From positions 1 through 38,428 of IMG/VR virus record IMGVR_UViG_3300010883_000118: 38,428 nucleotides of DNA. One strand, written 5' to 3'. Positions 4,565 to 37,848 of the stretch are shown piece after piece. The notes beneath the pieces are model-generated. The model made no database searches, was not told the origin of the DNA, and saw nothing but the letters and a program-made list of their open reading frames with translations. The first letter of the stretch is position 1; each line of letters begins with the position of its first letter. A program made the position numbers and the translations under genes. The DNA comes from a virus.

Positions 4565-4573
4565 AAAATTATA

Positions 4574-4581: not shown

Positions 4582-4585
4582 CAAA

Positions 4586-5042: not shown

Positions 5043-5077
5043 TAGTAAATAATTAATTTTAACTTAAAAACAATAAC

Positions 5078-5500: not shown

Positions 5501-5513
5501 AAAACTAACTTTA

Positions 5514-17749: not shown

Positions 17750-20700
17750 ATGGCAGGAATAAACAAATACATGAAGCCGGCTGAGCAGCCTTTACTAGAC
17801 ACTTACGTCCCTTTACCTTTTAAAGAGATGTCTATGGCTTACGCAGTGAAACAAAAAGAACATACCGATGCAGAAGAATTAGCAGGAAGTTTAGATGATG
17901 ATCTTTTAAAAGTAAGAGCCGTTACCCCCTTACACTCTAGGGAGTTAGGAAATATTAGAACTGGGTTAGATACTGAACTAAAAGAATTAGTTGATAAACA
18001 TGGAGGTAGATATGCTGATATGGTACCAGAATTAAGTAAAATAAAGACTAGGTTAGATAGAGACTTTAGAGATGGTAGTTTATATTCCATTCAAGAAACA
18101 ACCAGGCTTAAGGGAAAACTAGATAAAGGTATAGTTAAAGCAGAAGATTCTGAAAAGTATAGTGATTTATATAGTCCGAGGCTCGGAGGAGAACGTGATT
18201 TTACAAACTTCTATAATCAAGGTATGGTTTCTGATGGACAGGGGGGCACAACATGGGATACAGATCCGAATGTAGGATGGGAGTATACAGGAGATGGCCG
18301 TAAGATCTTATCAACATATGATTATAAGGGGGTACATCGAGGTTCAGACCAGACTGATATTGTTAATACACAAACTTTTGATAAAATAAAACCAGACATC
18401 CAGACTTGGGCAAATGAAAATAAGGGGAGATTATCAAAAGGAGAAATTAGAAAAGTTACTTTATCTAAGATTTATAGAGCAGCTCATAACGCTCACACAG
18501 CTTATCCGGATAACTTCCAAGAAGAGTTAGATCTTATAACAACAGGAATGATGACTCCAGAACAGGTGTACACATCTGCTGCGAATGCTATCGATAATAT
18601 ATATGGATCTGAACCCGAAACTGATGAGTTAACAGAAGCAAGAGACGAGGCATTAGAAGGATTAGGTACAGTAGAGGATCCATCCGCAGACGCATATAAC
18701 TGGGCAAAAACAGCTTATGTAGGTTCTTTAGGTGAGAAATATCTGATGTCTGATACTATGTATTCCGATACATTTGTTGGGACTAAAGACAGTAGCGGCT
18801 TTGGTAGTATCCCAAGAACAGATTGGGTACCGATAGTAGAGGGGGAAACTTCTATGTTACTAACTGGAAAACCAATGACACTGGATGGTACTGGGTTTGT
18901 TGCGGATTCTAAAACACCTTTACACGATTATTCAAAAGTTATAGACTCTAGAAGAAAGGTTTTAATAGATGTTAAAGACGAATACGATAGATTAGTATCT
19001 AGCGACATAGAAATGGATGATGCTTATCATACGGAGTGGCAGGAAAAAATAAATACTGCTCAGTATCAATATGAGTCTTCTGCATTTGCAATGGGTAACC
19101 TCTTACAACAATCTGCAAAAAGTATTAATGCAAAAAGAGTTGGTGATGTAGTAACCTATTCAAATTTTCAGAAAGGGAAATGGGTAGACGGAAAAGGAAT
19201 TGGAAAGGCGGAAGGGACAGTGACAGTAGGTTCTACAGAATGGAATACCGGAGGCTGGGCTACAATTCAATGGGATGAAAATGGTTTACCGTTTGATCCA
19301 GAAAATGTTGACTACAGGCAAGCTGTTAAATTACGTGGTCCAAGTAGTTACTTAAGTGTGAACCATGGATTAGCAAATGGTATAAACTCACTAGCACAAA
19401 GTTCTAAGAATCATCCACTAGCTGATGCGGCAAGGCAGCAGTCAGTTACTATGGGAACCGACGGATTCTTTAATGGAAGAGTACAGACTTTACCTTTATC
19501 TAATACTTCAACAAGTCTAGAAATGGATGAAGCCTTAGATGAAGCACTTGTAACTAACTTAACGCAAGAAGATTATGAATTCCAAACAAGCAGAGGAACA
19601 AAAGTTACTCTCAAGGGATTACTAGACGGAGTTAAGGATGGGGACAATAGTAAACAGATTTCACAAGAGACTCTTGATGGTTTAGGCGAAATAATAGAAG
19701 AAGCACAATTTACAATGGTTCCAGATCCAGCTACAAATGGTTACTTAGGAATGATTACTGTACCCCTTGAACCAAGTGATGCTTGGTTCGCGAAAGATGA
19801 TCCAAACGCTACATTAAATCTTTTCTTCCCGGCACCAAAAGAATATCATGAGACTATGAGAAGACAAGGGGAGTATGAGGAAGTTATTGATGCAGAATTG
19901 GGTACAACACAGAAAGTAACAAGACCTAGAACAGCATTAGAGAAGGCTAAGTTCGATGATGAATACTTTGCCCAACTAGATATTCAAAGAGCAAAAGATG
20001 TTCCAGGAGATATATCAATGAGTTCTTACGAAGACGGTGAAGGGAATCCATTAGGATACTATTACTATGCCCAAGATCCTACTGGAGAGCCTATTCAATT
20101 TGAACAGTATGTATTCCAACCTAGATCAGGCTTAGTAAAAGGTATAAACCCACAAGACGGTTCAACTATATTTACAACAGGAAATGAAATGTTTAATATA
20201 GATTCTGATCTAGGATCTCTTAGTTATTTAATTGCTATGAATGATCCAACTAGAGCTACTAGCAGAGACTTCTGGTTACAGCAGGCGCAAGTTCCTTCTA
20301 GTCCTATAGCTATTGAAAATACTATTCTTAATGTTCCATCGGTAGGTCTTGGGACAGATATGGGTGGAAACTCTTTCCAGACCAGTCTAAACTCAGGACA
20401 AACAATGTTACTAGATGATAGAGTATCAGAAACCTTTGCAGTTACGAATAACATGCCTAATAATCTTATAGGATTACAAAAACCTATTGCTAGCCTATTA
20501 CATAATGCTGCTGATAGCTATTCCGCTGAATTTGAAACAGTTATAAACGATAAACTTTCTGCGTCTGCTGCCACTTTACCAGTAACACTTGAAAGTGGTG
20601 CCCAAATATCTCTTCAGGAGGCTGTTGCCGGAGGTTATGTAGTACTTGAACCTAAAATTCAAGATAATCCTGATAATAATAACTTCTCATTAACCTTAGC

Positions 20701-21196
20701 AAGTGGGGCCCGTACTTACCAACAACAAAAAGAAATGTATGATGCATATGTTGCGGGAGGGAAAAAAGGTAACCCAACTGCTAACCCAGCAAATGGTGGA
20801 TTCCATGTTCTGGGGCAGGCAATAGATTTAAGTTCTCAGAAATCAGATTATGATTGGGTATTAAGCACAAAGGATGTCAAGGCTATTGGTAATTCTACAG
20901 TGGGGTTAAATGTAAGTCGTGGAGCAGGTCCTTGGGGCATATCGTTAAGCGAATTAAAAGGGTCCGATGGTAAGCTCGCGATGCCAAACTTCTATAAGAC
21001 AAGTATAAAATCCTTATTATCTCACATAACAAAATCACCAGCGGAAAGTGGAGTAATAGGTGAGTCTATAGTTAAAGACTATAACATGCCTGCTAACCAG
21101 GGAATACAGCAGTTTGATAAAGAATGGTGGCATTTATCATATGGAGAACAAACAAAAAATCCAGGGGAGTATGTATATCCTTCATGGGCAAATTAA
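17750..21196 (+). CDS. Large virion protein with C-terminal M15 (VanY-like) peptidoglycan peptidase
   Basis: 1,148 residues, starting 6 bases after the previous stop. The first ~950 residues are helical and beta-rich without a recognised family. Residues about 980-1140 are an M15 peptidase: SGARTYQQQKEMY with R988, the zinc-site motif H1019-x(6)-D1026 in HVLGQAIDL, and the final EWWHLSYGE with catalytic E1125 and zinc ligand H1128. All ligands of the LD/DD-carboxypeptidase family are present, so the site looks active. Known for the family: cleavage of D-amino-acid peptide bonds in peptidoglycan. Inference: a virion-carried muralytic enzyme that opens the cell wall during ejection; it could also serve in lysis, since no separate endolysin gene is visible in the window. 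Confidence 0.87.
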   Translation: MAGINKYMKPAEQPLLDTYVPLPFKEMSMAYAVKQKEHTDAEELAGSLDDDLLKVRAVTPLHSRELGNIRTGLDTELKELVDKHGGRYADMVPELSKIKTRLDRDFRDGSLYSIQETTRLKGKLDKGIVKAEDSEKYSDLYSPRLGGERDFTNFYNQGMVSDGQGGTTWDTDPNVGWEYTGDGRKILSTYDYKGVHRGSDQTDIVNTQTFDKIKPDIQTWANENKGRLSKGEIRKVTLSKIYRAAHNAHTAYPDNFQEELDLITTGMMTPEQVYTSAANAIDNIYGSEPETDELTEARDEALEGLGTVEDPSADAYNWAKTAYVGSLGEKYLMSDTMYSDTFVGTKDSSGFGSIPRTDWVPIVEGETSMLLTGKPMTLDGTGFVADSKTPLHDYSKVIDSRRKVLIDVKDEYDRLVSSDIEMDDAYHTEWQEKINTAQYQYESSAFAMGNLLQQSAKSINAKRVGDVVTYSNFQKGKWVDGKGIGKAEGTVTVGSTEWNTGGWATIQWDENGLPFDPENVDYRQAVKLRGPSSYLSVNHGLANGINSLAQSSKNHPLADAARQQSVTMGTDGFFNGRVQTLPLSNTSTSLEMDEALDEALVTNLTQEDYEFQTSRGTKVTLKGLLDGVKDGDNSKQISQETLDGLGEIIEEAQFTMVPDPATNGYLGMITVPLEPSDAWFAKDDPNATLNLFFPAPKEYHETMRRQGEYEEVIDAELGTTQKVTRPRTALEKAKFDDEYFAQLDIQRAKDVPGDISMSSYEDGEGNPLGYYYYAQDPTGEPIQFEQYVFQPRSGLVKGINPQDGSTIFTTGNEMFNIDSDLGSLSYLIAMNDPTRATSRDFWLQQAQVPSSPIAIENTILNVPSVGLGTDMGGNSFQTSLNSGQTMLLDDRVSETFAVTNNMPNNLIGLQKPIASLLHNAADSYSAEFETVINDKLSASAATLPVTLESGAQISLQEAVAGGYVVLEPKIQDNPDNNNFSLTLASGARTYQQQKEMYDAYVAGGKKGNPTANPANGGFHVLGQAIDLSSQKSDYDWVLSTKDVKAIGNSTVGLNVSRGAGPWGISLSELKGSDGKLAMPNFYKTSIKSLLSHITKSPAESGVIGESIVKDYNMPANQGIQQFDKEWWHLSYGEQTKNPGEYVYPSWAN

Positions 21197-21219: not shown

Positions 21220-24200
21220 ATGGCAAAAAAAAATCCAGGGGGTAATCTTACTATCCCCAGTCCTCAGACTTTAGATCCTATTACAGGATTACCTATGGAG
21301 CAGGACAAGAAAGAAATTATTATAGACCCTAGTGTCACAAACTCTCGTGAATTATATGATCAGGTTTCTACTGGTACACATTCAGGGCGTTACATGACGC
21401 CAAATGTTAGTGAGGTGAACTACTATGGTATGGATGATGTTACTTGGGATATTTATAATCCACAGAACATAAATAAGAGGAGAGCTGAAAATCAATTAGG
21501 TATAGTACAAGGAGGAAGAGCTCTAACTCAACTTATTTTAGGAGAGGTTGTTGGAGGAACAGTTGAATCTATTGGGAGTCTTATAGACGCCCCACTTAAA
21601 TGGATGGGAGTAGAGGAGGATAAATTCGGAAATGATTATCAAAATGCTATGTCAAAAGGAGGAAGCTGGTTAAGAAACTGGACTAAAGATGCTTTACCTA
21701 TACACAAACGTAACCCATTAGCTAAGGTTGATATGGCGGACCCAGGATGGTGGTGGGATGGGAGTGTAACTGTAGGATCTGCTATTTCCATGATGATTCC
21801 AGGATATGGGGTAATGAGAGCAGTAGCCGGGGGAACTAGATTAGCTAGAACATTCGCAGGAGCCCGCGCCCTAACCAGTACCGGGAGAGCTTCAAAAATG
21901 TATTCTAAGGCTGAAAAACTTCTTACTGGAAATGCATTTACTCAACTTGCAGGAAAGTCTGTTGTTATGGGAGTGGCATCTAGACATATGGAAAACTTTA
22001 GAGAGGCGGGAGAAACATATAAAGTAGCTTTAGATAAAAATCTTGAGTTTCTACATAAAGGAACGAACTATGAAGCCTTCCTAAATTCCCCAGAGGGAAC
22101 AAAATTTAACCAAGATTTCGGGTACAAAAAAGGAGATACGGCAAAACCTGAAGCTATAGCAAATTATTTAGCAGGCAATGCAGCCGCAAAAGCTTATACT
22201 TCAAATTGGGGTAATGTTGTATTTGATATATTACAATCCGGTCTCCTATTAAGAGGTCCACGAGTACTTGGTACAAGAGGCGCAGGAACTGGATCGCGTT
22301 CAAAAAAAGTAAGAGATGCTTCCTATGCTACTATGGCGGGGGGAGATCCACGGGGGAAGGCTATGAAAGCTTGGCAGAATTATATACGACCTGTATCAAA
22401 CTGGGCAGCATGGTCTTACTCAGAGGGGATGGAAGAACAGTGGAATTTTATTTCTATGGAAGAAGGTATACGTAAGGGAGATGTTATGGCAGGTAATATA
22501 GGATGGGAAAATGCAGAATATATGGGAAGCCTTACTCCCGCACAAAGAACAGAGGCGTACTTCCATGATCCTGAGCTGTGGTCTGCTACTATATTCGGAT
22601 CTATGGGGGGTGGTATATTTACATCAGTAGCTAATTTAAAGAATAGAAAGGCCCAGAAAGCATTAGATGCGGCACAGATTTCAGAGATTGGACAACGTGC
22701 AGAATTTATTAAAGCTGCTGAGACAAAGAAAGAAGAAGCTATAGCTCGAGGAGATTTGAATGCAGCTGCCGAACAAGATAAATTATTAGCTCTAAACCTA
22801 GCGCTAAATGCAGCAAATGTTGGAAGTGTAGATATGTTAATAGAAATGCTTAGAGACCCGGCATATGCAAAAACACTTACAGATAGTGGGATAGCTGCAC
22901 CAGAGGCAGAAGCTAATACAAATAAATTAGTTGATCTTATCCTCCAAGTTGAAAAGACATACCAAAAGTATACGAATGAGATGGTAGGTAAAAAATGGGG
23001 ACCTGGAGCAGTTTCGGCTTTAACTCAATTAGAAACTCTTGTTAATATTTATGATGGTCTTGCTAAAGAGGTAAACACGCAGCTACAAGAGAATGAAGCT
23101 TCTGATTCTTATACTACAGAACAGCTTCAAACTGGTCCTAACACACGAGCTAGATACGAGGCAATAATTAATAGAAAAAGACTACAGTCTGATATTGAGA
23201 CTTATACCCAGATAAGAAACAGGGCTGAAACACAGATGGCAGATAATAGTCTTACAGAAGCGGAAAGGAAAAATGCAGAAAAAGTAGCTAAACTTGTAGA
23301 CCAAGTTCTAGAACCAGCTAGAGTAGATTTAGGAAAAGTAGAAAAAGGAGAATCAGATTTAAAAGCTGACTCTGAAACTACGTATGATGCAGAAGCTCTC
23401 GCTAAAGAAACTAAATTTTTAAATAGTGTTAATACCGGAGGGCCCGAAGGTCTGAGATCTAAAGAGGAGATGTTTAAGCATCTTAGGGATTCATCATGGC
23501 AATCTATGCAGGATATATTAAATGGATTGAGTATTAAAACTAAAAATGAAAAAGGAGATATTTCTGATACGCAATTCTCTTCTCAAAAAGAAGCTCCATT
23601 CAGCTCAACTAGAGAAAAAGCTGTTCTTAATAATGAAGCAGAGATCCAAGAGTCTGTAAAAAATAGAGCTATATTAAATGATTTTAGAGATTTACTAAGA
23701 TCTGATCCTAATATAAGTGAAACTCAAATTAGAGATTTCTTAGCTCAATACCCTGATAATGAGTACATTCAAAAGATAGGGCAAGAAGAGTTAGAACATT
23801 TTATGCAAGCTATTGTAAACAATACAATGCGTACAGCATATGAACGCTTATTAGCTGAGAAACAGGCAGCAACAAAAGAAGTTAGTGATCAGATAGATCA
23901 ACAAATCGAAGCCTTAAAGAAAGAAGTCTTTGATCCTAAGATTAGCAGAAAAGAAAAAGCACGTAGAGTGCAAATAGAGAAAGATTATAGAGATCTTAAA
24001 GCAAGAGCAGCTCTAGCTTTATATGGAGATCCTGCGAGTAGAGATTTTATGATCGACACTTTATTTGATAGTTATACTAAAGTAGTCCCAGTAGTATGGG
24101 GAGAAATGATAGGAGCAATTTATAGAGACTCACAAACAAACGAATTGATATTCCGAGAAGGAGCGACAAACAAGGAATATATTGTACAAGAAGCTATTGC

Positions 24201-27200
24201 AGAAAAAGAGTTTGTAGATAGTAAAGGAAATCCTCTTAAAGGTCCTAACTTAGGATACTTAAACATGCTTATGCTAAGAGATTCAAATAGTATTATTGAG
24301 ATAGAGAGTGATGGGAGAACTATAAGTATTGATGGAGTCTACTATAATAATCTAGCTAGTGATCCAACCTCAGCTATTGAATACGACGCAGAATCAAATG
24401 TTGTTTCAGTTACTTTAACAAGATGGGACGGAAAGAAGATAACATTCACAGCTCCAGCAATTACAAATGAAGTAGCAAATGTTATTGAGACTTTAGAAGC
24501 AGTGAAAATAACTCGATTTAATGATCTTGTAAAAGATGATTTCTTAATCATTGAAGATAATGAAAACGAATATGTAGTTGCATACGAGACTAGAGGTTTT
24601 CATAGGTTAGTAGCTAAAGATATAAATGGAGAACCTTTATCAGGAGTCTTAAGAGAGACAGTATTACGGAAAGCTAATATAGAACTTAGTAATGCTATTC
24701 AAAATGAAATTAATAATTTAAAAGAAGAATACAATGAAACAGTCGCAACTCCTGGCAATGTTACCAGCCCCGTTACAGAAGGAAATCTTATGCCTACCGA
24801 TGTGGCAGAGACCGAGAGCTCTGAAAGCGCTGAGGGAAAACAGAACACAGAAATTAATGCAGCCAATACAACGAGTAACCCCACCCCAAGTGGAAACCAA
24901 ACCGTAGTAGAGGAAAATACACAAGAAAATATACTAGCTCAACAAGAAGCTGTGGTAGAAGTAAATCAACTTGAAGTTATAGCTGCTGATGTAGTAGAAG
25001 TAACTCCTGAAGAAGAGCAGGCAAAAGAGGAGCTCATTGCTGTTATTGAAAGTACTACAAACACAGAGACAGGACTGACAACTGTAGAGCAAGAAAGTAC
25101 TGTAGTTACTAAGAATACTCCTACAACGGATAATGTAAAGGTTCTTAATGCATCGTATCCACGAGCTTTTCTTGCTCAGTTCTTAGCTATTACTAATAAC
25201 GATCCTAAGATAGCACCTAAAGGATGGCTAACTGTTCGAGATGCTAATGGTAATCGTCTTCCAAAGTATGTTAATTCTAGTGGTAATGCATATACAATTA
25301 AGAATGCTAAAGATTTAACTAAAGAAGAACAACGTTTACTGAGTGAAGGATCAAAAAGAGTAAAAACTTTACATTATTTTGTGCCCCAGGTTGATAAGAA
25401 TAACCAACCTATTAATGAAGGAGAAAGAGTAATTGAGTCTGAGACTCTCGCACAACTCAGAACAGAAGGTGAATATCAAGTTTTAGTTGTTAATGCAGAC
25501 TCAATAGCTGTATCTGATATATATAGACTAGATTTAGCTAACAGCTCAGAAGTAGGGATAGGTACCGAAGTTATACTTAGGATAGAACCTATTAATCCAT
25601 ATTCAAATTCTACTGACCCTGTCGTTACGATACGTCTAGCATCTAACCCAAGTATTATTTTATCTGAATTGGTCCGCGGTAGCAGGGTAAACTTAAAAAA
25701 TGCTAAGCTAAGAGAGAAAATTAATAAACTTATTGCGCAGAAGACTACTGCTGATATTCGTGCTACGATAGCCGGAAAAACAAATGGCTTTGTAATTAAC
25801 CAAAAAGGTTATGCTGGCCAGTCTATACAGCAACCAATAACAATTCTTGGAGAAGATATAACTTTAGGAATTCATCAAGGAGAATCGGGTATTGTATATA
25901 ATAATACACAGGTACCAAGTCATAGGTCTGTATATTCTGAAAACGGATATGTATATGCAGCAGTTAAATCTTCTAGCGGCAGAATGGTTCCTATACGACT
26001 CTCAACATCAACCCTAAGCGAAAAGGCTATCCAAAGTATTTTAAGCACGCTTACGGATGATAACCTAACAGCAAAAGATAAGCAGGCTATTGTAAATCAA
26101 ATAGTTCATATCCCACTAGGTGTTAGAAAAGATGATCAATTTAAATTAGGAGGGAAAATGTCTAAGATACTTGCAATGGATAACTTTGTTATAAAAATCC
26201 CATTTCAAAACCAAGTACTTGGAATTCAGTATAATATGGAAGGAAGTGAGAAATTTAAAAGAAATAATTTATTAAATGCTTTAGAGGGCAAAGAATTCTT
26301 TTTTAAATTGTATGATGAAGCGGGCAATTTACTATCTACCCCAGGACCTATTATAGGACTGGCCGGACAAGCAGTGCAGACAAATCCATTAATCAGTAGT
26401 AAAACATTAAATTTAGCATCTGGAGAATTAAAAACTGCTATTGAAGAACACCTGGCTTCTAAGGTTTACCACGTAGCAAAGAATAAAATAAATACTAGTG
26501 ATTCATATTTTAACCCTCTAAGACAAGAGGCTTATAAAAATTATCTAGATTATTTAGCAACAGAAGGAATCCTAACAACAGACATCCCAGGAGTAAACGA
26601 ACAACAATTTCATAACTCTGCTATCTATGTTGAAGTAGCTGATGATATTACAAAAGCAACACAAAAGGATGTACCTTCTTTTCTAGAAGGGGCTGTGGAA
26701 GTAGAAGGGATGATTACACCTGAAATGGTAGTAGAAGAAGAAACTACTGAGTTAGATGCGTTAATGACTGGACCGCTTCCTACTACTGGAGGTACAATGA
26801 CAGTAACTACTCCTCTTACAGCAGAAACTTATGTAGAAGGTACTGCAGGTAACCAGACTATCGTAGAGATAGATCCAAATAAGATAGATGACCAATTTAA
26901 ACTGAGAGAGTATGAAGAGTTAGAAGGTAATACAGCTTTAATAACGGAAACAGAACGTCAATGGTTCTTATCTAGATTTGGACAAGAAGGGCTTACTGTT
27001 ATGGATAGATTAAAGTATATGACCTTGAAAGATGGTAGACAAGCATATGGGTATTACCATAGAGGAATGATTACTATAGCTAAAGAAGCTCAAGAAGGTA
27101 CTTTATATTGGGAAGCTTTTAGACGTATCTATGATTTACATTTAACTCCAGAAGAGAAGTCAACTATAGAATTAGAAGTTGTACAGAACTTTAATGAATC

Positions 27201-30200
27201 TGGTGAAGGTGCTATACAAACTCGTTTAGCAAGTGAGTTCATGAAGTTTAAATTAAATGAAGATGCAAAAGGTTTAGGGGCTACAATAAAAAAATTCTTT
27301 AAAGAGTTGATGTATTACCTTAAGAATATGATGGGGATGAAGAATGATATTCAACGTTTATTTAGAGATCTGAATACTAGAGATTATACTTATTATACTA
27401 AAGAAGAGGCCGCATTTTATTCAAATACTCAAGTACCTAAATTAAGAGAAAAGAAAGGGTTTACTACACCACAAGTACAAGAGATTGTAGGAGGTATTAA
27501 CTTCCAGCTTGCAAAAATATTAGAAGCTAACTATGGAGAAACTTGGGCAGAGCAGCTAGGTAAAGGAAATATAATTAAGAATACTTACGAAGCTGTCAGA
27601 CAAACTATTGCAAAAAAAGCTATAGAAATAAAAGAATTAGAAACAAAGAGTGAAAACCTCAGAATACTAGGACAAACATATGCTATAGTATCAGAACCGT
27701 CTGTATGGTATGATAAACCTGGTAAGTATGGGAATATAGTAAGCCCAGGATTTATTACTCTAGCTGCAAAAGGATTAGAAGCTCTTGGAGTTAAATATAA
27801 AGTAAAACAAAATGGAGGAATAGATTTTAATAAAGCCTCAGAAATAGTAGAAGAAGTTGGTAGTGAAGAAACTGCTATAACAGATTTAGAAGAAATAGAA
27901 TCTGAAACTCAACAACATATTTATAATATTAATTTCTTTAATACTCCAGTTAAAGAGAGTTTATCTAGAGATATTAAAGTTGGTTTAAGTTTTATACGTA
28001 CTACGGAAAAAGGAAAAGTATTTGGAAACTATATGTTTCACCCATTTGATGAGGTATACTCTTATTTATCTGTAGCTCTTGCAAATACACCTACAGGTAA
28101 TGTTGTTTCCAAGTTAACGCAGTTAGCAGAGACCGGATCTCATCCTTTAGTAAAGGAAGTAGTTCAGCTTTATGGAACACAGACTAAACAATGGCAAAAT
28201 AAATTTTCTTCTCACTTTAATAAACAAAATATAGATTTCTTAACCTTAGTTATTCAGGATGGTGTAGGAAAGGTAATAAGAACAAATAGAAATGACTTAG
28301 TAAAACAAGTTATTACTAAGTGGGTTGATAATAGAACTAATACAGATTTATTTCTCCCAGCTACAGGACAAGTAGACTTAATAAATACTGAAGCGGTTAC
28401 TAAACTCGATACACTTTATAAAGAAACTCAACGATTAGCTCAGTTAGGAGATAAAGCAAAGTATTTAAGAGCTTTTAAGAATACATTAGATTATGCAGGT
28501 ATGGAGTTAGGACGTGATGCCTATAAGACATTATTTGAAGATGAAACTATGCAGATAGAAGATTTACATACTTATATGGTGGGATCAAAATCTTTTGAAT
28601 ATATTCTAAGAGGATTAAAAAAAGCTATCCCTTCAAGTCCCTATTTACCTGGAAGTGAAACATCTGCCCTAAGACGTATAGCATCCTTAGCGTCAAAGTT
28701 CTCAATAGATCATTACACAGGATCTTTTTTAGGCGCAGATAAAAAAGTTATTTATGCTATAAACTTAAATACATTTGATTCTAAAGCAACATTACAGTTG
28801 AGATCTGATGAAACCTATGAACAGGTTATACAGACTAGATTTAAAGATACATTCTATAGCCCTACACCAGGGATGAGGCATTTAATTTTAGATATGCTAG
28901 CAACTAATCCTGAAGTACGTCTTAACTTCCAACTAAATACCTTTGATGCTATAAAAGAAGATGGTTATGGAGGGAGAGCTACAGTCTATGATAATATGAA
29001 TCAGGAGTTAGCTGCTCAGACAAGAGTAGCAATGTATTTTAATAGTGGATTAGCATTTGGACATTTTAATACAGGTACAAAAGGAGATAAATCTCAATCT
29101 AAATACATACAACTACCTAAAATTTCTCCAGATGGTAGATTTAGCGGAAGATTATGGACGTCTGGAAATGATAGGTCCTATGATGGATGGGTTAAAACTG
29201 CTGTAGATCTCTTAAGACCTGCAGTATACGGCGAATTAGCCCGAATAGCTAAAACAAATAAGCAATTATTCGGTCATAATCCTATACCTTTAAATGAACA
29301 GCAGGAGAATGTACATTACCAAGAGGTTAAAGGAGATAATCAAGGTAATGGATTACGTTTTATAGCGTTCCCATTACTAAATGAGCCTAAATATAATTTC
29401 TTTTCCCCAAGTGGGAGACTAAATATGGCATTTGAAAATCTAAGTTCTATGGCTACCGTTGAGAGTCAGAGAGTTGCTATAGGAGATAGTCTTACTAGAT
29501 ATGTAAAAGAGAATATCACAGGAACCATTGAAGCATTGGAATTAGCCGGTGTTGTTAAAAAACAAAATAATGGCTCATATACTAATGTAAGCTTACCTTC
29601 TGAAATTATTACCGGTAAAATGCTTCAAGGAGATATATCACCAGCTTTAGTAGAGTTTGCAGTAAATGATTTGGTATACAAACCTTATATTAATACAACT
29701 TTTGGTCCTGATTTAGCTTACTACAAAACAGATTCAACAGGTAATCCTATTATTGATGCCGGTAAAAGAGCATACGGACCTATTACTCCAGGAACCGATG
29801 CTGTATGGAATGAAGAAAAACAGTATGGACTTAAACCCCAATTTTCACATGCAGTCTTAAATGATGTTTTTAGAGATAGAGAGGCAGCTATATTCGATCT
29901 GCTAATAGCTTCAGGAACTAATACTAAAGAGGCTAAACGAATCTCAAGTGCTTATAGAAAAGTTAATTCAACAGATGCGCAAGGGTTTACTACTCTAGAA
30001 TTTCATAAAAGCGAAATGGAATCTGATGGTTCTTGGCTTGATACACATGATAATGCATATAATAAGTACTGGTCTAAAGGGCTAATGGGAGATAGAGAAA
30101 GTCGTGCTTTGTACTTAGACCCAAGAAAGACTTATTACTACGGAGATAGATTATCTATTGATTCTCAAGGTAATGAAAGTATTATATGGGAGCAAATTAA

Positions 30201-33200
30201 ACATTCAACTATTCCATTACTTAGAGAGTTTACAGAGCTGTATAAGGAAACACCGGGAGAAAATAAGCTTACATTGAACCAGTTACGAATTCGTATGGAA
30301 AATAAAAATAATCCTATTGATATGGTGAACTTTGTATCTGCTTTAAAGATTGGAGCTAGTGGTGTATTTGATTATACTGAAGATATAAATACTATAAAAG
30401 TTAATTACTTACCGTCAACCCACTTAAGAAGTCCTCAAGTGATTAAAACAAAAGTTGGAGATGCTCTAGATGGTACACAGAGAGCTAAATTAATTTTATT
30501 AAATATATTAGACGAAACGAACTATAATGTATTCAATGCTAAGATAGAAGGTAAGAGCATAAAGAATCTTTATAATGATCTTTATGCAGAGCGTATTAAA
30601 CGATCTCATGATCAGTTAGTATCTGAATTAGGAGTTAAAGAATACGAAAATGCTTTAGATAATAGAGTTGAAATAGGTGAAGAGCAATATGCTAAAGAAG
30701 AATTAAAATTTTTACAAAAGACACGGGATGTAATTACACAAAGTTTAGATAGCAGGGCATTACCTGATAATTATTATCTAGCTTTAGATATAGATGAACT
30801 TGTAAATGATATGGATACATATGGATTTGCAGCTCCTTTAGCTTTTCCTCCATTTGCAAAAAGATTTGAAAGTATATTGTTATCACTATTTAAAAATAGA
30901 GTCTTAAAACAACGTTTTAATGGTATGAGTGTGGTTCAGGTAGCTGAATTCGGATTTGGTATTGATAAAACACTTGAATCAAAACAACATAAGAACGGAG
31001 GTGTTTACGCTGAAGTAGCTCTTCCTTATGAAGTAGCAGTTAAATTAGGATTAAAACCTGGAGATGTAACGAATGATTTAGATGTTCTTGATTTAATAGG
31101 TTATAGAATTCCTACACAAGGAAAAAACTCTATGCTATCTCTCAAGATAACTAGGATACTACCTGAAAATATGGGAGGTGTAATTTTATTCCCTGCAGAG
31201 GTTACTACTATTATGGGATCTGATTTTGATGTAGATAAAATGTATCTTATGTTCCCCGAATTATCTAAATCTAAAGAGAAAATAAGCGCATTCAGCTTAG
31301 AAAAATATAATGAAAGTAAATCATTTGAAGGCCTGTCTGATGAAGCTATTAGTAATGCAATATTTGATATAAGTAATAGTATCCTTACAGCTAAAGAACA
31401 TGCTCAAGAGATATTAGACCCCTTAGATTCACCTACATACACCAAAAAACTAGCGCAATATGAAAAATTAGGATTCATTCCAGATATTTCAGGTATGAAT
31501 ATAAATTCATTTGCTGCAGATATGTATTTAGAAAAAATTAATAAAGATGCTGGAATGTTAATCGGTCTCTTTTCTTTACAAGCTACTGGTCATGCTATGG
31601 CGCAACAGATGGATGTTTCTCTACAGAATGGCTATGAAATTAATATAGAAGCGGGCGGCAAAAAGACTCATACGGACTTAAGTAGAGTACTTGGTTTCGA
31701 TGGTTATTATATTTCTACTTATTTATCTGAGGATCAGAATGAATCACTTGATAATGCTAAGTACCAAAGAATTGGTCGAGTTGGTGTAACAGTATATAAT
31801 AGCGGTGTTGTAGCCCTCTTAAATAGAATTGGATTTAATAATTCTATTACATTAGACTTTATTAATCAACCAATTTTAAGAGAATTCTTTAGGCTAAGAG
31901 CTTTAGCTGGCCCAGAAATGGCTGATATACAGATCGCTAAAGACATAGTAGGAAAGATAGGTACAACAATAGAGTTTACTGATATACACTATAATAATAA
32001 TGTTGCATATACTCCATCTAAAACTTCTTTAGAAGAATCTCTAATAATTGATTATAGCGCTGACCAGTTTAAAGTCCCCCAAACACAAATACTCTCTGAT
32101 TTTTTACAGTATAGTAAAGTAGCAAGAGATTTAAGCAGGTTTAATACTGCTGTAAGTCCTGAAACTTTAAAGAATACAAGCCGTCTAAGTTATTTTGAAC
32201 GCTATAATAGAGCTGTTGAGTCTTTTAATACTGGACAAGCTTCTATAAATATTGGGAATTCTACCTCTAGATTAGAGGCGTTTAGAGAATATGGACTAGA
32301 TGCAGCTGTTTCGTATACATCAAAGTTCATTCCATATAATGTTCCAGGATTCCTTGAGCTAAAGAATAAGATAGCTACGACTACAGGACAACTAGATAGA
32401 ACTCTTACTCCTGAATTAACAGATGTAATAAATGGAATGGCATTATACTATTCATTCACCAAAAAGAATTCTCCATTTGGACTAATGATATACGAAAAGA
32501 ATGAAGCAGTACAAAAATATTTATTTACTGCAGAAGGATCATTACTTAAAGCTTTAACCCGGATAAAAGAACAGTACGGATTAACAAATGATCCATTTTT
32601 AGGTATGTTATACGGCCATGAAAATAATGTGAGTATAGATAATGTTTTACAAACTATAGCTTTTAATAATACTACACGACTGGGTACACCCCAATTAAAC
32701 TTAATTACAGATAGATGGGCAGAGTTATTACAAGATCCTAGAGATGAAGTTAGAATTCTAGCACAGAATTTAGTTAAGTACGCAGTGATAACATCTGGAT
32801 TTATGTTAGGGCCTAACTCTTTTGTAGATTTAATTCCTATTTCTTACTGGCAATCTGCAGGTTTAACTGATTATTTCAGAAAAGAATCTCGTAGTATGGG
32901 ATATGAAAATTACTTTGATGATAATGCTGTAGAACAGATTATAAGAAACATGTATACAGAACAGGGCCTTTTAATGACTATAGATTCTAAGTCTTTAGAA
33001 ACCAGTGATGTATTAAGAAAAGCCCACGGCCTTAACCAAAATCAATATTTTATTCATAAAAAACAAACACCACAGATATTCGTTGATAGTTTAGAAGTAG
33101 GAGTTCAAGAATATGTAGGATATTTTAAAGCCTTTACTGGAGATAAATTTAGACTCTTTAAGTTTAAGAGGAGTACAGCTCGAGGGGGGATTTATGAAGA

Positions 33201-36200
33201 GATTACTCCTCTAGGTACAAGATTTAGACATGTAGAGATGCAGGCTGATAATGTTGTTGTAGAGAGTATGAACCCAAGCAATGCTTTAATGCATGAACCG
33301 ACTCCAGTTAAAGATATAACGGAAATAACATTAGATCAGAGAATAGATGAGTCTAATAGCAGTGAAACAAATGGCGGTTTAATGCCTAGACTAACTCCTA
33401 ATGTAAAAACAGCAGTTCTAAACGAATTAGACCAGAGGATAGAAACTTGGTTAATGGAAAACTTTGGGATACCTGTAGAAAAATACGATAGTCTTAAAGT
33501 TAAATTAGGAGTAGATGCTATTGGTGTGGCAGATATGGCTAATAGAGTAGTTAAGGTAGATAATGAAAGAGATCGTTACACATTACCGGAAGAAGCAGGT
33601 CACTTTTATGTAGAAATGATGGATAACCCTTCATTTGATAGATTAATAAATCTAGTAGGAAGTACTCAAACCTATGAACAGGTCCTTAAAGACTATAGTG
33701 GATTATATACCACTGACTTAGAGTTTAAGAAAGAGGCCGCAGGACAAATCTTAGGAAAGTATATTGTAGGGACCTATACAAATGAAGTTGCTAAAGAAGA
33801 TTATGGCTCAGGTTTAATGGGAACATTAAGAAAGGTTTGGGATTCTATTAAACGATTCTTTAATAGAATTGGTATAAAAGAATCTATAAACGACTTAAAT
33901 AGTCAGTTATATGATATTTTAGGGCCTGCAGCATCAGCTATTATAGAGAATGTGAATCCGGGAGGACTAAGCGTAGAAAATATAGGTATTCATAAATACT
34001 ATGCTTTACAGAATTCTAAAATTGAATTCAGAAATTCGGATGGAAATGTAGTTAATATGGGAGATAAGGCTAAAACAATGTTTAGGCGTGTGGGTAGATA
34101 TGCATCTACAAAGATTCCATATTTAAAAACTTTTACCCAGAAAGAAGCTTTAAACGAGTTGCTAGCAGAGAGTAAACAAATTGTTGCCCCTACAGCTAGT
34201 AATAACTACTATATGCAAGATGGTGTAAAATTAAACCGTGTAAGCAGCTTAATGGAGATATTCCAACATCCTTTTGAACAACAAGAAATGGCAGAGAAAG
34301 TAGCCGCTAAGAATCAAAAAGAGGGTAGTCCTTTTAATACGGCAGATAAAGTTCAGAATCTATGGGATTTCTTAAGAGATGATATGGGGACAGGGCTACA
34401 CAATCTAATGCAGGGCATAATAGAAAAAAGAAGCCTAGATGAGTTAATAAATAGTGTACCGGAGAATCAACAAACAGCTTTTAGAAATGCTATACCACAA
34501 TTACGTGAATGGGTAAGAGAGAAAGAAGCTGCAGGAAGTACTCTGTACTCAGAAACTTTAATAGCAGATAAATCTGATTTGGTAGCAGGTACTGCTGATA
34601 TTATTGAGCTTACATCAGATGGAAGAAAAATAATATGGGATTTAAAAACAAAAGCAAGAGGGAAGTTCGCTACTATAGAACAAAGATTACCTAATTTTAT
34701 AGGAGCTCTATCAGGTATAACAAATACATTATTTAATAAGTATCGATTACAGCTTTCTATATATAAGCATATAATTGAAGAGAAGGGTATCAAGATAGAC
34801 CAAATAAATATTTTACCTTTAGAAGCAGATGTAAATGTTGATAACGAAGGAAATATCACATTTGCTAAGGTATCTTTCCCGGAGACTAATTTACAAGTAC
34901 TAAATAAATTAACTAATATGCAGCCTATAGAGTCTAAACTTATAAAGAAAGCTATTAGTTACGTATCACCCGAAACCGATGAAGCTGGGATAAAACAACA
35001 AGAAGACGCTGATAAATTATTAACCATATTCCAAAAGGCTAAAGATCAAATCGCTACAAAAATAGTTAAGTATAAAAAAGCACAAAATAGTTCTGAGTAC
35101 CTAACGGCAATAAAAACATTACATGAGGAACTTGATGAGCTTACTGAGAAAGAAGGATTAATTCTATATACTAAACGTGCGGTCAGAGATATAAACAGTG
35201 CTTATAAAAAATTAAAAAGTCTACAAAAGACAGGAGGACTAAACGCAAAGAACTTAGGCCAAATATTAGATTTTGTAAGTGTATACGATATATTAGATAA
35301 CATAACTTTAATGGCTCCTATGCTTGCAGAGTCTGGGTATAAGAATCTCTTAGAGAACTATGTTCAACCAGCTATAGCAAAGAGAGAGCTTGTAAAAACT
35401 GAACATGCAGCTTTAATAAGACCAATGATTGCTGAGGCATTAGGAAGATTAAGCAAAAATCCTGGTATGAGTATAAAAGCATTAGAAGCTCAGTTATTAA
35501 TTGCGCCAAGAGACATATCAGCTGCGGCTAGATGGGCAGATGGTTTAGGAGACTCTACAGATACTACACTTGCTATGGTAAGTAAACTAGTTGCTATACA
35601 AAGAAGAAAGGTAAGTGAAGCTACAATAAATTTACGAAATGGAACTTCTACTACTGAGGGCCTTATGAAAGTAACGAAAGCTTTAGAGAAGTTTCAACAT
35701 AACCGAGGTGTAAATCTCTATTCAAATAGAGCAGTATTTGATTTTATGCTAGAGACTACTGAAAAAGGACAAGTTACAGGAAGTATAGTAGGACTGCATA
35801 CACCAGAGTTTAAAGCTCTTCAAGATAAATTTATAGAAGATAATACCCATCTAGACAAACTAAATTGGAATCTGTTCTATGCAGAACATAACCCAAATAA
35901 TTATTTAAGTCCTAAGATGCAAGCTCTTAATGAAATGAGCAAAGAAGATCCAAGAAGAGTATTTTATGATTTTTATGAAGAGAATTATACATATGCTCAA
36001 AGTTTATTACCAGCAAGTTATAGAAAGAAGAGAGCATTACCATCTCTTAGAGCATCGGCAGGTGAAAGAATAACGGAGAAAGAAGGAGGTATAATTACTA
36101 GAAGTTATGATGCAGTAAAAGAATCTATACTTGAAATGACAGTAAGACAAGTAGATAATGTTTCTTATGGGGAATACACAGACGAAAGTGGAAACCCATT

Positions 36201-37848
36201 AGATTATGTCCCAATTCATTATGTTAGAACTATAGGAAATGAAGAGGGGCAACTAAGCCCTGAAGATGTAGCTTATGATTTAACAGATGGTTTACAAAGA
36301 TTTTTTACAATGGCTGTAAACTTCCAAGAAATGAATGAGATTACACCAGAGTTAGAAGGTGCTGGTGAACTTATTAAAAACAGGAGAGTTACAAAACTTA
36401 AATCCGGTATGCCAATCCTGGACCCAGTTACGGAGAAACCACAGACTGAAGCTGGAATAAACTCTCAAGGATTTGCACGTTTTCAGGATTATATGCAAGC
36501 GCAAGTATGGGGTAAACGTAAAAAACAAGAAGGAACTATTAGAGTTGGTGAGAAGACCTTTAATGTAGAACAACTTGGTGACGCAATATTACAGTATGGA
36601 AGTTTAAGAGTTATGGCACTGAATAAGCATGCTGCTTTATCAAATGTAACATTCGGATCTATGATGAATGCGATAGAAGCGTATGCGGGTGAACATTATA
36701 CTGTAAAAAACTGGACAAAAGCAAAAGGTTATTACACAGCAAATATGTCTGGTTTTGCGGCAGATGTATTATCAAGAACTCCCCAATCTAAAATTGGTTT
36801 ACTAAATGAACTCTTCGATGTTCAGCAAGATTTTGATGAATACGGTATGAGAATGTCTCATAGAAAATTAGGTATGCGAGCTGATTTAGGGGCCCTCTAC
36901 TTTTTACAGACTTCAGGAGAGCATATGATCCAGACTCAACTGGGTTTATCCCTGATGATAAATACAGAATTTACAATCTCTACAGGAAAAATAAATTTAT
37001 ATGATGCTTATACAGTAGTAGACGGAAGATTAGAATTAAATTCTGAAGTTGAAAATCAATTCAGTTTAGAACAACGTTCTGAATTTACTGAAAAAATGCA
37101 TGCTGTATACCAAAGACTGCATGGTATATATAACAATAAAGATAGATCTGCTTTGCAACAATATGCAGCTGGTAGATGGGCATTCCAATTCCGTAAATGG
37201 ACAAGACCTGGTTACCTACGTAGATTCCAAGGGGTAGAGAAATTGTTTTATGATAAAAAGTCTGAATTTAAAAAAGCCGACTTTAATGAAAGATTACAAA
37301 CTGTAGCGGAAGGAAACTATGTTACTACAGTTAGATTTCTAGAGGATATAAGAAAAGATTTATTTAAATTACAATTCCTAACTATGAATGAAAGATATAA
37401 GGACCTTAATTCTCATCAACAAGCTAATCTTAGAAGATCTTTAGGAGAAGCATTAGGATTGGTATTTTTATACTTTACGGCAGGTTTACTTAAGCCGGAT
37501 GGTGAGGATGAACCATTATCTGCTTTTGAAAATCAAATGCTTTATAATATAAAACGTGTACAGGGTGAGATGTTATTCTATAATCCGTTTGGAAGTTCTT
37601 TTTATGATATTCTAAGAGCACCGGCTGCGAATTTAACAAGTATTGAAGCTTATGGTAAACTATCGACTCAGTTAGTATCAGACATGATTTCAGTATTAAC
37701 TGGTGGAGATCTTGAAAGATATAAGAGAAAATCTGGAAAATATGAGAAAGGAGATGCTAAATTACGTAAGTACTGGAGAAACGTGCTAGTAGGTAAAGAA
37801 TTCTTTACTGATGCAGGAGATAAATTAAAATGGTTTGATTTGGAATAA
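21220..37848 (+). CDS. Giant virion protein: single-chain virion RNA polymerase fused with PD-(D/E)XK nuclease
   Basis: 5,542 residues in one frame. Order: (1) residues 1-1160, cargo-type, with an amphipathic stretch near 180-230 (WWWDGSVTVGSAISMM) and long coiled coils; (2) an acidic Glu/Thr-rich linker, about 1160-1305; (3) a beta-rich part; (4) a zincin-like site with WEAFR at 1964-1968; (5) the RNA polymerase, with candidate first-barrel Lys3043 (SALKIG), NGMSVVQ at 3234, R3296 in RIPTQG and the catalytic DFDVD at 3335-3339. The R-to-DxDxD spacing (39) is close to that of bacterial beta-prime. Next come (6) EEAGH at 4124-4128; (7) a PD-(D/E)XK nuclease with H4394, D4460, D4474-x-K4476 and QLSIY 4511-4515; and (8) a crAss-type C-terminal region. 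The crAss-like polymerase of Cellulophaga phage phi14:2 is, from memory, only about 2,200 residues, so this looks like several genes fused. It would be packaged and ejected to transcribe early genes. Confidence 0.9.
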   Translation: MAKKNPGGNLTIPSPQTLDPITGLPMEQDKKEIIIDPSVTNSRELYDQVSTGTHSGRYMTPNVSEVNYYGMDDVTWDIYNPQNINKRRAENQLGIVQGGRALTQLILGEVVGGTVESIGSLIDAPLKWMGVEEDKFGNDYQNAMSKGGSWLRNWTKDALPIHKRNPLAKVDMADPGWWWDGSVTVGSAISMMIPGYGVMRAVAGGTRLARTFAGARALTSTGRASKMYSKAEKLLTGNAFTQLAGKSVVMGVASRHMENFREAGETYKVALDKNLEFLHKGTNYEAFLNSPEGTKFNQDFGYKKGDTAKPEAIANYLAGNAAAKAYTSNWGNVVFDILQSGLLLRGPRVLGTRGAGTGSRSKKVRDASYATMAGGDPRGKAMKAWQNYIRPVSNWAAWSYSEGMEEQWNFISMEEGIRKGDVMAGNIGWENAEYMGSLTPAQRTEAYFHDPELWSATIFGSMGGGIFTSVANLKNRKAQKALDAAQISEIGQRAEFIKAAETKKEEAIARGDLNAAAEQDKLLALNLALNAANVGSVDMLIEMLRDPAYAKTLTDSGIAAPEAEANTNKLVDLILQVEKTYQKYTNEMVGKKWGPGAVSALTQLETLVNIYDGLAKEVNTQLQENEASDSYTTEQLQTGPNTRARYEAIINRKRLQSDIETYTQIRNRAETQMADNSLTEAERKNAEKVAKLVDQVLEPARVDLGKVEKGESDLKADSETTYDAEALAKETKFLNSVNTGGPEGLRSKEEMFKHLRDSSWQSMQDILNGLSIKTKNEKGDISDTQFSSQKEAPFSSTREKAVLNNEAEIQESVKNRAILNDFRDLLRSDPNISETQIRDFLAQYPDNEYIQKIGQEELEHFMQAIVNNTMRTAYERLLAEKQAATKEVSDQIDQQIEALKKEVFDPKISRKEKARRVQIEKDYRDLKARAALALYGDPASRDFMIDTLFDSYTKVVPVVWGEMIGAIYRDSQTNELIFREGATNKEYIVQEAIAEKEFVDSKGNPLKGPNLGYLNMLMLRDSNSIIEIESDGRTISIDGVYYNNLASDPTSAIEYDAESNVVSVTLTRWDGKKITFTAPAITNEVANVIETLEAVKITRFNDLVKDDFLIIEDNENEYVVAYETRGFHRLVAKDINGEPLSGVLRETVLRKANIELSNAIQNEINNLKEEYNETVATPGNVTSPVTEGNLMPTDVAETESSESAEGKQNTEINAANTTSNPTPSGNQTVVEENTQENILAQQEAVVEVNQLEVIAADVVEVTPEEEQAKEELIAVIESTTNTETGLTTVEQESTVVTKNTPTTDNVKVLNASYPRAFLAQFLAITNNDPKIAPKGWLTVRDANGNRLPKYVNSSGNAYTIKNAKDLTKEEQRLLSEGSKRVKTLHYFVPQVDKNNQPINEGERVIESETLAQLRTEGEYQVLVVNADSIAVSDIYRLDLANSSEVGIGTEVILRIEPINPYSNSTDPVVTIRLASNPSIILSELVRGSRVNLKNAKLREKINKLIAQKTTADIRATIAGKTNGFVINQKGYAGQSIQQPITILGEDITLGIHQGESGIVYNNTQVPSHRSVYSENGYVYAAVKSSSGRMVPIRLSTSTLSEKAIQSILSTLTDDNLTAKDKQAIVNQIVHIPLGVRKDDQFKLGGKMSKILAMDNFVIKIPFQNQVLGIQYNMEGSEKFKRNNLLNALEGKEFFFKLYDEAGNLLSTPGPIIGLAGQAVQTNPLISSKTLNLASGELKTAIEEHLASKVYHVAKNKINTSDSYFNPLRQEAYKNYLDYLATEGILTTDIPGVNEQQFHNSAIYVEVADDITKATQKDVPSFLEGAVEVEGMITPEMVVEEETTELDALMTGPLPTTGGTMTVTTPLTAETYVEGTAGNQTIVEIDPNKIDDQFKLREYEELEGNTALITETERQWFLSRFGQEGLTVMDRLKYMTLKDGRQAYGYYHRGMITIAKEAQEGTLYWEAFRRIYDLHLTPEEKSTIELEVVQNFNESGEGAIQTRLASEFMKFKLNEDAKGLGATIKKFFKELMYYLKNMMGMKNDIQRLFRDLNTRDYTYYTKEEAAFYSNTQVPKLREKKGFTTPQVQEIVGGINFQLAKILEANYGETWAEQLGKGNIIKNTYEAVRQTIAKKAIEIKELETKSENLRILGQTYAIVSEPSVWYDKPGKYGNIVSPGFITLAAKGLEALGVKYKVKQNGGIDFNKASEIVEEVGSEETAITDLEEIESETQQHIYNINFFNTPVKESLSRDIKVGLSFIRTTEKGKVFGNYMFHPFDEVYSYLSVALANTPTGNVVSKLTQLAETGSHPLVKEVVQLYGTQTKQWQNKFSSHFNKQNIDFLTLVIQDGVGKVIRTNRNDLVKQVITKWVDNRTNTDLFLPATGQVDLINTEAVTKLDTLYKETQRLAQLGDKAKYLRAFKNTLDYAGMELGRDAYKTLFEDETMQIEDLHTYMVGSKSFEYILRGLKKAIPSSPYLPGSETSALRRIASLASKFSIDHYTGSFLGADKKVIYAINLNTFDSKATLQLRSDETYEQVIQTRFKDTFYSPTPGMRHLILDMLATNPEVRLNFQLNTFDAIKEDGYGGRATVYDNMNQELAAQTRVAMYFNSGLAFGHFNTGTKGDKSQSKYIQLPKISPDGRFSGRLWTSGNDRSYDGWVKTAVDLLRPAVYGELARIAKTNKQLFGHNPIPLNEQQENVHYQEVKGDNQGNGLRFIAFPLLNEPKYNFFSPSGRLNMAFENLSSMATVESQRVAIGDSLTRYVKENITGTIEALELAGVVKKQNNGSYTNVSLPSEIITGKMLQGDISPALVEFAVNDLVYKPYINTTFGPDLAYYKTDSTGNPIIDAGKRAYGPITPGTDAVWNEEKQYGLKPQFSHAVLNDVFRDREAAIFDLLIASGTNTKEAKRISSAYRKVNSTDAQGFTTLEFHKSEMESDGSWLDTHDNAYNKYWSKGLMGDRESRALYLDPRKTYYYGDRLSIDSQGNESIIWEQIKHSTIPLLREFTELYKETPGENKLTLNQLRIRMENKNNPIDMVNFVSALKIGASGVFDYTEDINTIKVNYLPSTHLRSPQVIKTKVGDALDGTQRAKLILLNILDETNYNVFNAKIEGKSIKNLYNDLYAERIKRSHDQLVSELGVKEYENALDNRVEIGEEQYAKEELKFLQKTRDVITQSLDSRALPDNYYLALDIDELVNDMDTYGFAAPLAFPPFAKRFESILLSLFKNRVLKQRFNGMSVVQVAEFGFGIDKTLESKQHKNGGVYAEVALPYEVAVKLGLKPGDVTNDLDVLDLIGYRIPTQGKNSMLSLKITRILPENMGGVILFPAEVTTIMGSDFDVDKMYLMFPELSKSKEKISAFSLEKYNESKSFEGLSDEAISNAIFDISNSILTAKEHAQEILDPLDSPTYTKKLAQYEKLGFIPDISGMNINSFAADMYLEKINKDAGMLIGLFSLQATGHAMAQQMDVSLQNGYEINIEAGGKKTHTDLSRVLGFDGYYISTYLSEDQNESLDNAKYQRIGRVGVTVYNSGVVALLNRIGFNNSITLDFINQPILREFFRLRALAGPEMADIQIAKDIVGKIGTTIEFTDIHYNNNVAYTPSKTSLEESLIIDYSADQFKVPQTQILSDFLQYSKVARDLSRFNTAVSPETLKNTSRLSYFERYNRAVESFNTGQASINIGNSTSRLEAFREYGLDAAVSYTSKFIPYNVPGFLELKNKIATTTGQLDRTLTPELTDVINGMALYYSFTKKNSPFGLMIYEKNEAVQKYLFTAEGSLLKALTRIKEQYGLTNDPFLGMLYGHENNVSIDNVLQTIAFNNTTRLGTPQLNLITDRWAELLQDPRDEVRILAQNLVKYAVITSGFMLGPNSFVDLIPISYWQSAGLTDYFRKESRSMGYENYFDDNAVEQIIRNMYTEQGLLMTIDSKSLETSDVLRKAHGLNQNQYFIHKKQTPQIFVDSLEVGVQEYVGYFKAFTGDKFRLFKFKRSTARGGIYEEITPLGTRFRHVEMQADNVVVESMNPSNALMHEPTPVKDITEITLDQRIDESNSSETNGGLMPRLTPNVKTAVLNELDQRIETWLMENFGIPVEKYDSLKVKLGVDAIGVADMANRVVKVDNERDRYTLPEEAGHFYVEMMDNPSFDRLINLVGSTQTYEQVLKDYSGLYTTDLEFKKEAAGQILGKYIVGTYTNEVAKEDYGSGLMGTLRKVWDSIKRFFNRIGIKESINDLNSQLYDILGPAASAIIENVNPGGLSVENIGIHKYYALQNSKIEFRNSDGNVVNMGDKAKTMFRRVGRYASTKIPYLKTFTQKEALNELLAESKQIVAPTASNNYYMQDGVKLNRVSSLMEIFQHPFEQQEMAEKVAAKNQKEGSPFNTADKVQNLWDFLRDDMGTGLHNLMQGIIEKRSLDELINSVPENQQTAFRNAIPQLREWVREKEAAGSTLYSETLIADKSDLVAGTADIIELTSDGRKIIWDLKTKARGKFATIEQRLPNFIGALSGITNTLFNKYRLQLSIYKHIIEEKGIKIDQINILPLEADVNVDNEGNITFAKVSFPETNLQVLNKLTNMQPIESKLIKKAISYVSPETDEAGIKQQEDADKLLTIFQKAKDQIATKIVKYKKAQNSSEYLTAIKTLHEELDELTEKEGLILYTKRAVRDINSAYKKLKSLQKTGGLNAKNLGQILDFVSVYDILDNITLMAPMLAESGYKNLLENYVQPAIAKRELVKTEHAALIRPMIAEALGRLSKNPGMSIKALEAQLLIAPRDISAAARWADGLGDSTDTTLAMVSKLVAIQRRKVSEATINLRNGTSTTEGLMKVTKALEKFQHNRGVNLYSNRAVFDFMLETTEKGQVTGSIVGLHTPEFKALQDKFIEDNTHLDKLNWNLFYAEHNPNNYLSPKMQALNEMSKEDPRRVFYDFYEENYTYAQSLLPASYRKKRALPSLRASAGERITEKEGGIITRSYDAVKESILEMTVRQVDNVSYGEYTDESGNPLDYVPIHYVRTIGNEEGQLSPEDVAYDLTDGLQRFFTMAVNFQEMNEITPELEGAGELIKNRRVTKLKSGMPILDPVTEKPQTEAGINSQGFARFQDYMQAQVWGKRKKQEGTIRVGEKTFNVEQLGDAILQYGSLRVMALNKHAALSNVTFGSMMNAIEAYAGEHYTVKNWTKAKGYYTANMSGFAADVLSRTPQSKIGLLNELFDVQQDFDEYGMRMSHRKLGMRADLGALYFLQTSGEHMIQTQLGLSLMINTEFTISTGKINLYDAYTVVDGRLELNSEVENQFSLEQRSEFTEKMHAVYQRLHGIYNNKDRSALQQYAAGRWAFQFRKWTRPGYLRRFQGVEKLFYDKKSEFKKADFNERLQTVAEGNYVTTVRFLEDIRKDLFKLQFLTMNERYKDLNSHQQANLRRSLGEALGLVFLYFTAGLLKPDGEDEPLSAFENQMLYNIKRVQGEMLFYNPFGSSFYDILRAPAANLTSIEAYGKLSTQLVSDMISVLTGGDLERYKRKSGKYEKGDAKLRKYWRNVLVGKEFFTDAGDKLKWFDLE

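Follow-up and report, generated by a model that had tools for sequence, protein, structure and literature searches.

A predicted crassvirus virion RNA polymerase joined to two further cargo-protein segments in one 5,542-residue chain

The window analyzed here, i.e., the whole stretch of 38,428 nt (38.4 kb) that makes up the IMG/VR record IMGVR_UViG_3300010883_000118, contains a series of tail and putative cargo genes that ends with a giant gene:

7452..8198 (+), crassvirus tail ring protein 2 (PF25702, E 2.3e-39)
8601..9356 (+), crassvirus tail ring protein 1 (PF24228, E 4.9e-55)
9356..14872 (+), crassvirus muzzle protein (PF25731, E 7.7e-145)
14927..17743 (+), 938-aa protein in the place of cargo protein C1 (assigned by position only, from the gene order)
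17750..21196 (+), 1,148-aa protein in the place of cargo protein C2 (assigned by position only)
21220..37848 (+), giant gene, A-B-C three-way fusion of 5,542 aa and 622 kDa

The tail genes are crassviral, with ring and muzzle proteins matching curated crassvirus Pfam families at E values of 2e-39 to 8e-145. The capsid and portal genes that mark Crassvirales were found outside the window, in a related contig (G022), as the crassvirus major capsid protein (PF23898, E 2.7e-144) and a P22-like portal (PF16510, E 2.3e-8). The protein encoded at 17750-21196 has a VanY/endolysin-like domain near its C terminus (PF02557, E 7e-5; phrog_2649, E 1.6e-4). Two other genes of the window deserve mention. The one at 6303-7448 combines a NUMOD domain (PF22083, E 1.9e-6) of the sort usually seen in homing endonucleases with a calcineurin-like phosphoesterase/DNA repair exonuclease (phrog_704, E 6.6e-59). 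The one at 2-4564, cut at its 5' end, encodes 1,520 aa with no Pfam or PHROG match, and at the counterpart position of G022 (48213-59243) there is a gene of 3,677 aa.

The giant gene opens with ATG, and its frame is uninterrupted up to the terminal stop codon. A preliminary description of this DNA, made from the letters alone, had claimed a single uninterrupted frame of 5,542 residues, and translation of 21220-37848 gave just that, with the motifs that it quoted (SALKIG at 3040, including K3043; NGMSVVQ at 3234; RIPTQG at 3296; DFDVD at 3335-3339) all in place. A search for suppressor tRNAs gave none, either for the window or for those relatives that were scanned. The gene had no megablast match among phage records, and its product had none in Pfam above the curated cut-offs; PHROGs gave a single convincing match, to the exonuclease family phrog_298. 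A search of IMG/VR with the last 882 residues retrieved nothing, while residues 3961-4660 retrieved the clade described below. Five contigs with about 51-56% protein identity were obtained with a query taken from the start of segment C, and more were added through alignment of the polymerase core. Eight of them contain this core and, with the window, form one clade of nine. Within the giant protein we distinguish the following features, given with residue numbers:

21220..26619 (+), segment A, residues 1-1800 (profile matches to loci L024, L023, and L025, E 6e-100 to 3e-143)
21343-23850 (+), most conserved stretch of segment A, residues 42-877
26620..26904 (+), A/B linker, residues 1801-1895, its length varying strongly among relatives
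26938..27309 (+), zincin-like domain 1, residues 1907-2030, with WEAFR at 1964-1968 (27109-27123) instead of HExxH
27370..33234 (+), segment B, two-barrel RNA polymerase, residues ~2051-4005
29707..31779 (+), conserved polymerase core, residues 2830-3520
30346..30348 (+), Lys3043 (SALKIG; DGVKVG in gp66), candidate catalytic lysine of the beta-like barrel, at least 90% conserved
31105..31107 (+), Arg3296 of RIPTQG, invariant
31222..31236 (+), DFDVD metal site, residues 3335-3339
33235..33405 (+), B/C linker, residues 4006-4062, poorly conserved; L058, the sister lineage, has a gene boundary here
33418..33774 (+), zincin-like domain 2, residues 4067-4185, with EEAGH at 4124-4128 (33589-33603) instead of HExxH
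34207..34884 (+), PD-(D/E)XK (RecB-type) nuclease domain, residues 4330-4555 (phrog_298, E 7.5e-12)
35767..37530 (+), conserved alpha-helical C-terminal domain, residues 4850-5437, homologous to phi14:2 g065 and crAss001 gp49

The limits of the segments were set with clade-derived profiles, which were compared with the ORFs of related loci. Segment A (~1-2030) matches phi14:2 g067, p-crAss gp45, and crAss001 gp47. Segment B (~2051-4005) matches phi14:2 gp66 and crAss001 gp50, and segment C (~4063-5542) matches crAss001 gp49 (E 4.7e-96) and phi14:2 g065 (E 1.5e-42). The earlier suggestion that the polymerase is fused with proteins that are separate elsewhere thus found support, the three segments being separate virion proteins in phi14:2. 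In L058, the closest relative outside the clade, the polymerase gene is homologous up to profile position 4024 and the next gene from 4051 onward, and the fusion junction is therefore a short variable linker.

The polymerase assignment, also proposed in the preliminary description, was upheld by a phmmer match to the structure of phi14:2 gp66 (6vr4, E 7e-20), which aligns GSDFDVD with GSDFDID. In an alignment of 16 sequences, including phi14:2 gp66 and crAss001 gp50, the invariant positions are G3235, R3296, P3298, and G3333-S3334-D3335-F3336-D3337-x-D3339-K3340; the upstream arginine that had been singled out is thus among them, and the lysine that had been put forward as a candidate, Lys3043, aligns with that of DGVKVG in gp66. 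The window protein has the signature of crAss-like polymerases, GSDFD[VI]DK with an upstream R-x-P and a conserved lysine in the first barrel, and downstream of the genes for tail and cargo proteins segment B has its g067- and g065-type neighbors on either side, here fused to it. Judging from this conservation, the motifs are not due to chance. An AlphaFold model of residues 2700-3640 had a mean pLDDT of 70, and with this moderate model quality Foldseek gave 6vr4 as the best solved match (E 1.5e-30; TM-score 0.43 over the query), in agreement with two double-psi beta-barrels in one chain; the absence of a barrel fold, named in the preliminary description as grounds for refutation, was not observed. 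It was followed by P23-45 gp96, P32 gp64, and the AR9 and phiKZ polymerases, with expansins, which are double-psi barrel proteins, in the weak tail of the list. Two relatives have peculiar polymerases: L049 (G028) has the metal motif GQDFDID versus a near-invariant GSDFD[VI]D elsewhere, and the 4,387-aa polymerase ORF of L014 has an apparent intein (CLGYGTKVLMFNGKF...) inserted downstream of the DFDVD motif.

Segment C of the clade contains an additional domain. A block of about 326 residues (profile positions 4246-4571) in the clade corresponds to about 18 residues in L058, whose segment C has no nuclease, and this block contains the predicted PD-(D/E)XK nuclease, with GTAD and WDLKTK in the window and the GxxD and D-x-K core in nine of nine members. 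A related nuclease is located in segment A, next to the zincin, in crAss001 and several others, and in segment C also in L086. Hence, the domain moves among these proteins, which agrees with a remark by Yutin et al. on its presence in a transcription protein of some phages (PMC7886860). The C-terminal domain was modeled with a pLDDT of 82.6 (residues 4840-5450). No solved relatives were found for it; it matches crAss proteins that include phi14:2 g065 (TM 0.76) and R9ZWK0 of phi17:2. The latter is an epsilon-group phage reported to lack the transcription block, and further matches, by structure or sequence, come from one phage record each of Leptolyngbya and Azobacteroides. Homology of this domain to the C2 part of the N4 virion polymerase was also tested, and none was found.

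The two zincin-like domains, which align with HExxH-bearing relatives, flank the polymerase. In the clade, the HEAFH of domain 1 has become WEAFR, WESFR, or WEAMR in all nine members, a single change on the tree. HExxH is kept in this domain by 40 of 40 distinct tree tips outside the clade and by 52 of 52 homologous ORFs, a count that includes redundancy and a few hits of the domain 2 type. For domain 2 the form in the clade is EExxH, shared with crAss001 gp49 and further lineages, and many phages retain HExxH there. The motif of active zincin metallopeptidases, HExxH, does not occur anywhere in the 5,542 residues of the window protein, which has WEAFR and EEAGH in its place, and self-cleavage of the giant chain by these domains is therefore unlikely on sequence grounds. 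Domain 1, with 52-67% identity, is better conserved than most of segment A, and for this reason it is probably retained for structure. The name zincin-like is tentative, taken as it is from HExxH conservation, the p-crAss annotation, and weak Pfam and profile hits (Tox-MPTase4, E 0.0099; alignment with the N4 zincin, probability 28%). We considered whether loss of the zincin is strictly coupled to fusion and rejected this, since L123 is a triple fusion of 5,530 aa with two intact HExxH motifs.

In a tree of 108 polymerases the nine members form a clade with 100% SH-aLRT, with L058 next to it. Split, A+B, B+C, and A+B+C forms are all present, the fused proteins are ordered A-B-C, and across the family it is commoner for the subunits to be partly or fully separate. 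Triple fusions are scattered over the tree, in four or more distinct places, and a single origin was rejected when it was constrained to one clade (AU p 2e-57). Having these forms on one tree means that the subunits have repeatedly tolerated fusion, and this suggests that A, B, and C function adjacent to each other.

The known systems differ in how many of these parts are joined. Cellulophaga phage phi14:2 (Steigviridae) has the homologous g067-gp66-g065 in the same order and the same polymerase residues, but as three separate genes (1,797, 2,180, and 1,421 aa), and neither the nuclease was found in g065 nor the domain 1 zincin hit in g067. In p-crAssphage (Carjivirus communis), gp44 (4,070 aa) unites the polymerase and the C-type subunit and is annotated "RNAP catalytic subunit fused to unknown RNAP subunit," whereas segment A is separate as gp45 (1,957 aa), annotated "fused to zincin protease." The Suoliviridae cr118_1 and the L058, L050, and L004 types have A and the polymerase in one protein of 4,100-4,950 aa (4,946 aa in cr118_1), but wherever C is visible on the contig it has a gene of its own, and zincin 1 retains HEAFH. 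The same segments are fused three-way in L123 (5,530 aa), L072, L073, L075, L077, and L118, which lie elsewhere in the tree and in whose segment C the nuclease was not found; L123 and L073 also retain HExxH. More distant are the giant single-chain virion polymerases with a metallopeptidase-like domain of coliphage N4 (gp50) and Thermus phage P23-45 (gp96). In N4 gp50 the zincin is likewise followed by a large helical C-terminal part, but the polymerase has a T7-like fold, HExxH is intact, and the C-terminal domain has no detectable homology to ours; none of our segments matched N4 gp50 significantly, although such a match would be expected of a member of the N4 type (Schitoviridae). In P23-45, unlike here, the polymerase is fused to the tape measure protein. 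Giant crAss polymerases and two-way fusions were thus already known. For the loss of zincin ligands and the insertion of the nuclease, the literature searched gave no earlier report. Calling the window protein one of the longest phage proteins, as was done initially, is fair. It is not a record, given p-crAssphage gp44, the 4,946 aa of cr118_1, and a review that puts crAss polymerases at "up to ~6000 aa" (PMC10136315).

Is the giant chain real, and is it a single product? The three parts are separate genes in other crAss-like phages, the window is a fragment from a metagenome, and one member of the clade (G027, i.e., L048) has an in-frame TAA near residue 274 (L048 2060-2062), followed by a frame of 5,496 aa; this stop could be an error or a genuine truncation. 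One could thus imagine that an assembly error or a frameshift had joined three genes. However, the full-length frame is present in four other contigs of the clade at 5,520-5,714 aa. It has 5,520 aa and about 51% identity in G022 (IMG/VR 3300020438, 87 kb), with the same neighboring tail genes as in the window, and 5,638, 5,641, and 5,714 aa in G025, G026, and G028. In three more (G020, G021, and G023) it reaches the contig end without a stop. Across the aligned frame, dN/dS was 0.105-0.15 in three close pairs, and it was 0.08-0.26 inside the A/B and B/C linkers wherever it could be measured, values that reveal purifying selection across both fusion junctions. Given these frames and ratios, we rule out an erroneous joining of three genes, whose probability is negligible. 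An additional B+C product, made from an internal start besides the full chain, would find its signal in the A/B linker, where an in-frame ATG at 26797 (residue 1860) is preceded by GGAGGT, an element that recurs in L044 and L048. It is absent from the other members of the clade, though, and the genes of the window do not use Shine-Dalgarno leaders, as expected of Bacteroidota phages. We considered such a start and judge it quite unlikely.

The alternatives that concern the fate of the protein differ more in their prospects. It could be a polyprotein that, once fully translated, is processed at the A/B and B/C linkers by a different protease, of the phage or of the host, into the three subunits seen in other crAss-like phages. 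Both linkers are poorly conserved and variable in length, partly or wholly separate subunits are commoner in the family, and the DdrB protein of phage P1 is processed before packaging (PMC5512222). On the other hand, the window protein has no intact HExxH, no conserved cleavage motif was seen in the linkers of the clade, and the giant polymerases of N4 and P23-45 are whole in virions. Cleavage of the linkers by some other protease would limit the reading of the chain as whole, and we regard this course as unlikely but worth keeping in view. That the degenerate zincin domains are themselves still proteases, using other ligands, is far less probable: the catalytic Glu is retained in WEAFR and EEAGH, and domain 1 exceeds most of segment A in conservation, but in nine of nine members domain 1 lacks both zinc histidines and domain 2 the first one. 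Lower still do we place the idea that the fusion is not packaged and serves as a non-virion polymerase synthesized after infection. P23-45 has both kinds of polymerase (PMC10770324), yet the gene directly follows those for tail and cargo proteins, in the phi14:2 order, and each of the three segments has homologues that are virion proteins.

We thus favor, as likely, a crassvirus virion RNA polymerase in which three cargo proteins are carried in one chain, with the whole chain as its most probable form. In this protein, A (the phi14:2 g067 family), B (the gp66-type two-barrel polymerase), and C (the g065 family) are joined by short variable linkers, with a predicted PD-(D/E)XK nuclease lodged inside C. 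We infer that it is a virion protein from its homologues detected by mass spectrometry in phi14:2, where g065-g067 were identified by MS/MS, and in crAss001, whose virions contain gp47, gp49, and gp50 (PMC10172136). The homologues of these two phages are packaged in the virion and transcribe early genes independently of the host polymerase (PMC10172136, PMC10136315), and crassvirus cargo proteins are thought to traverse the tail partly unfolded, before the DNA (PMC10172136). By analogy with crAss001, phi14:2, P23-45, and N4, the giant protein may be made late and packed near the portal, threaded in a partly unfolded state through the tail before the DNA follows, and refolded in the host, where it would transcribe early genes independently of the host polymerase. 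Fusion would set A, B, and C at 1:1:1 and fix the order of their delivery, and the zincin-like domains would be kept as structural parts of an uncut chain. The initial description had raised the question of whether the protein is ejected whole or cut. The sequence evidence, i.e., no intact zincin motif, argues against self-cleavage, and for this reason packaging and ejection of the whole chain seem most likely.

These results bear on the role of metalloprotease-like domains in giant injected phage polymerases. Self-processing was a leading proposal for polyvalent proteins (PMC5512222). There are precedents for whole giant polymerases in virions: that of N4, which has a metallopeptidase domain, is nevertheless packaged without processing (PMC5512222), and P23-45 gp96 is full-sized in virions (PMC10770324). 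The clade described here amounts to a natural knockout, since it has the full fusion and no intact zincin motif. Should virions turn out to contain the chain intact, the crassvirus polymerase would need no self-cleavage for its packaging, ejection, or function. The broader proposition, that the clade evolved independently of N4 an uncut ejected transcription machine of ~620 kDa with pseudoprotease domains and an added nuclease, could in our opinion equally well prove right or wrong.

Two other loci were noted. A crAss-like polymerase homologue occurs in a 1.05-Mb contig labeled Candidatus Aenigmatarchaeota (L124; CP070801.1, 918-940 kb), for which mis-binning, an integrated phage, and a wider host range are all possible explanations. 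Finally, L115 (404-18637), in which a C-type tail was not detected, has a stop-to-stop frame of 6,078 residues with zincin 1 and the polymerase, and it is longer than the window protein.
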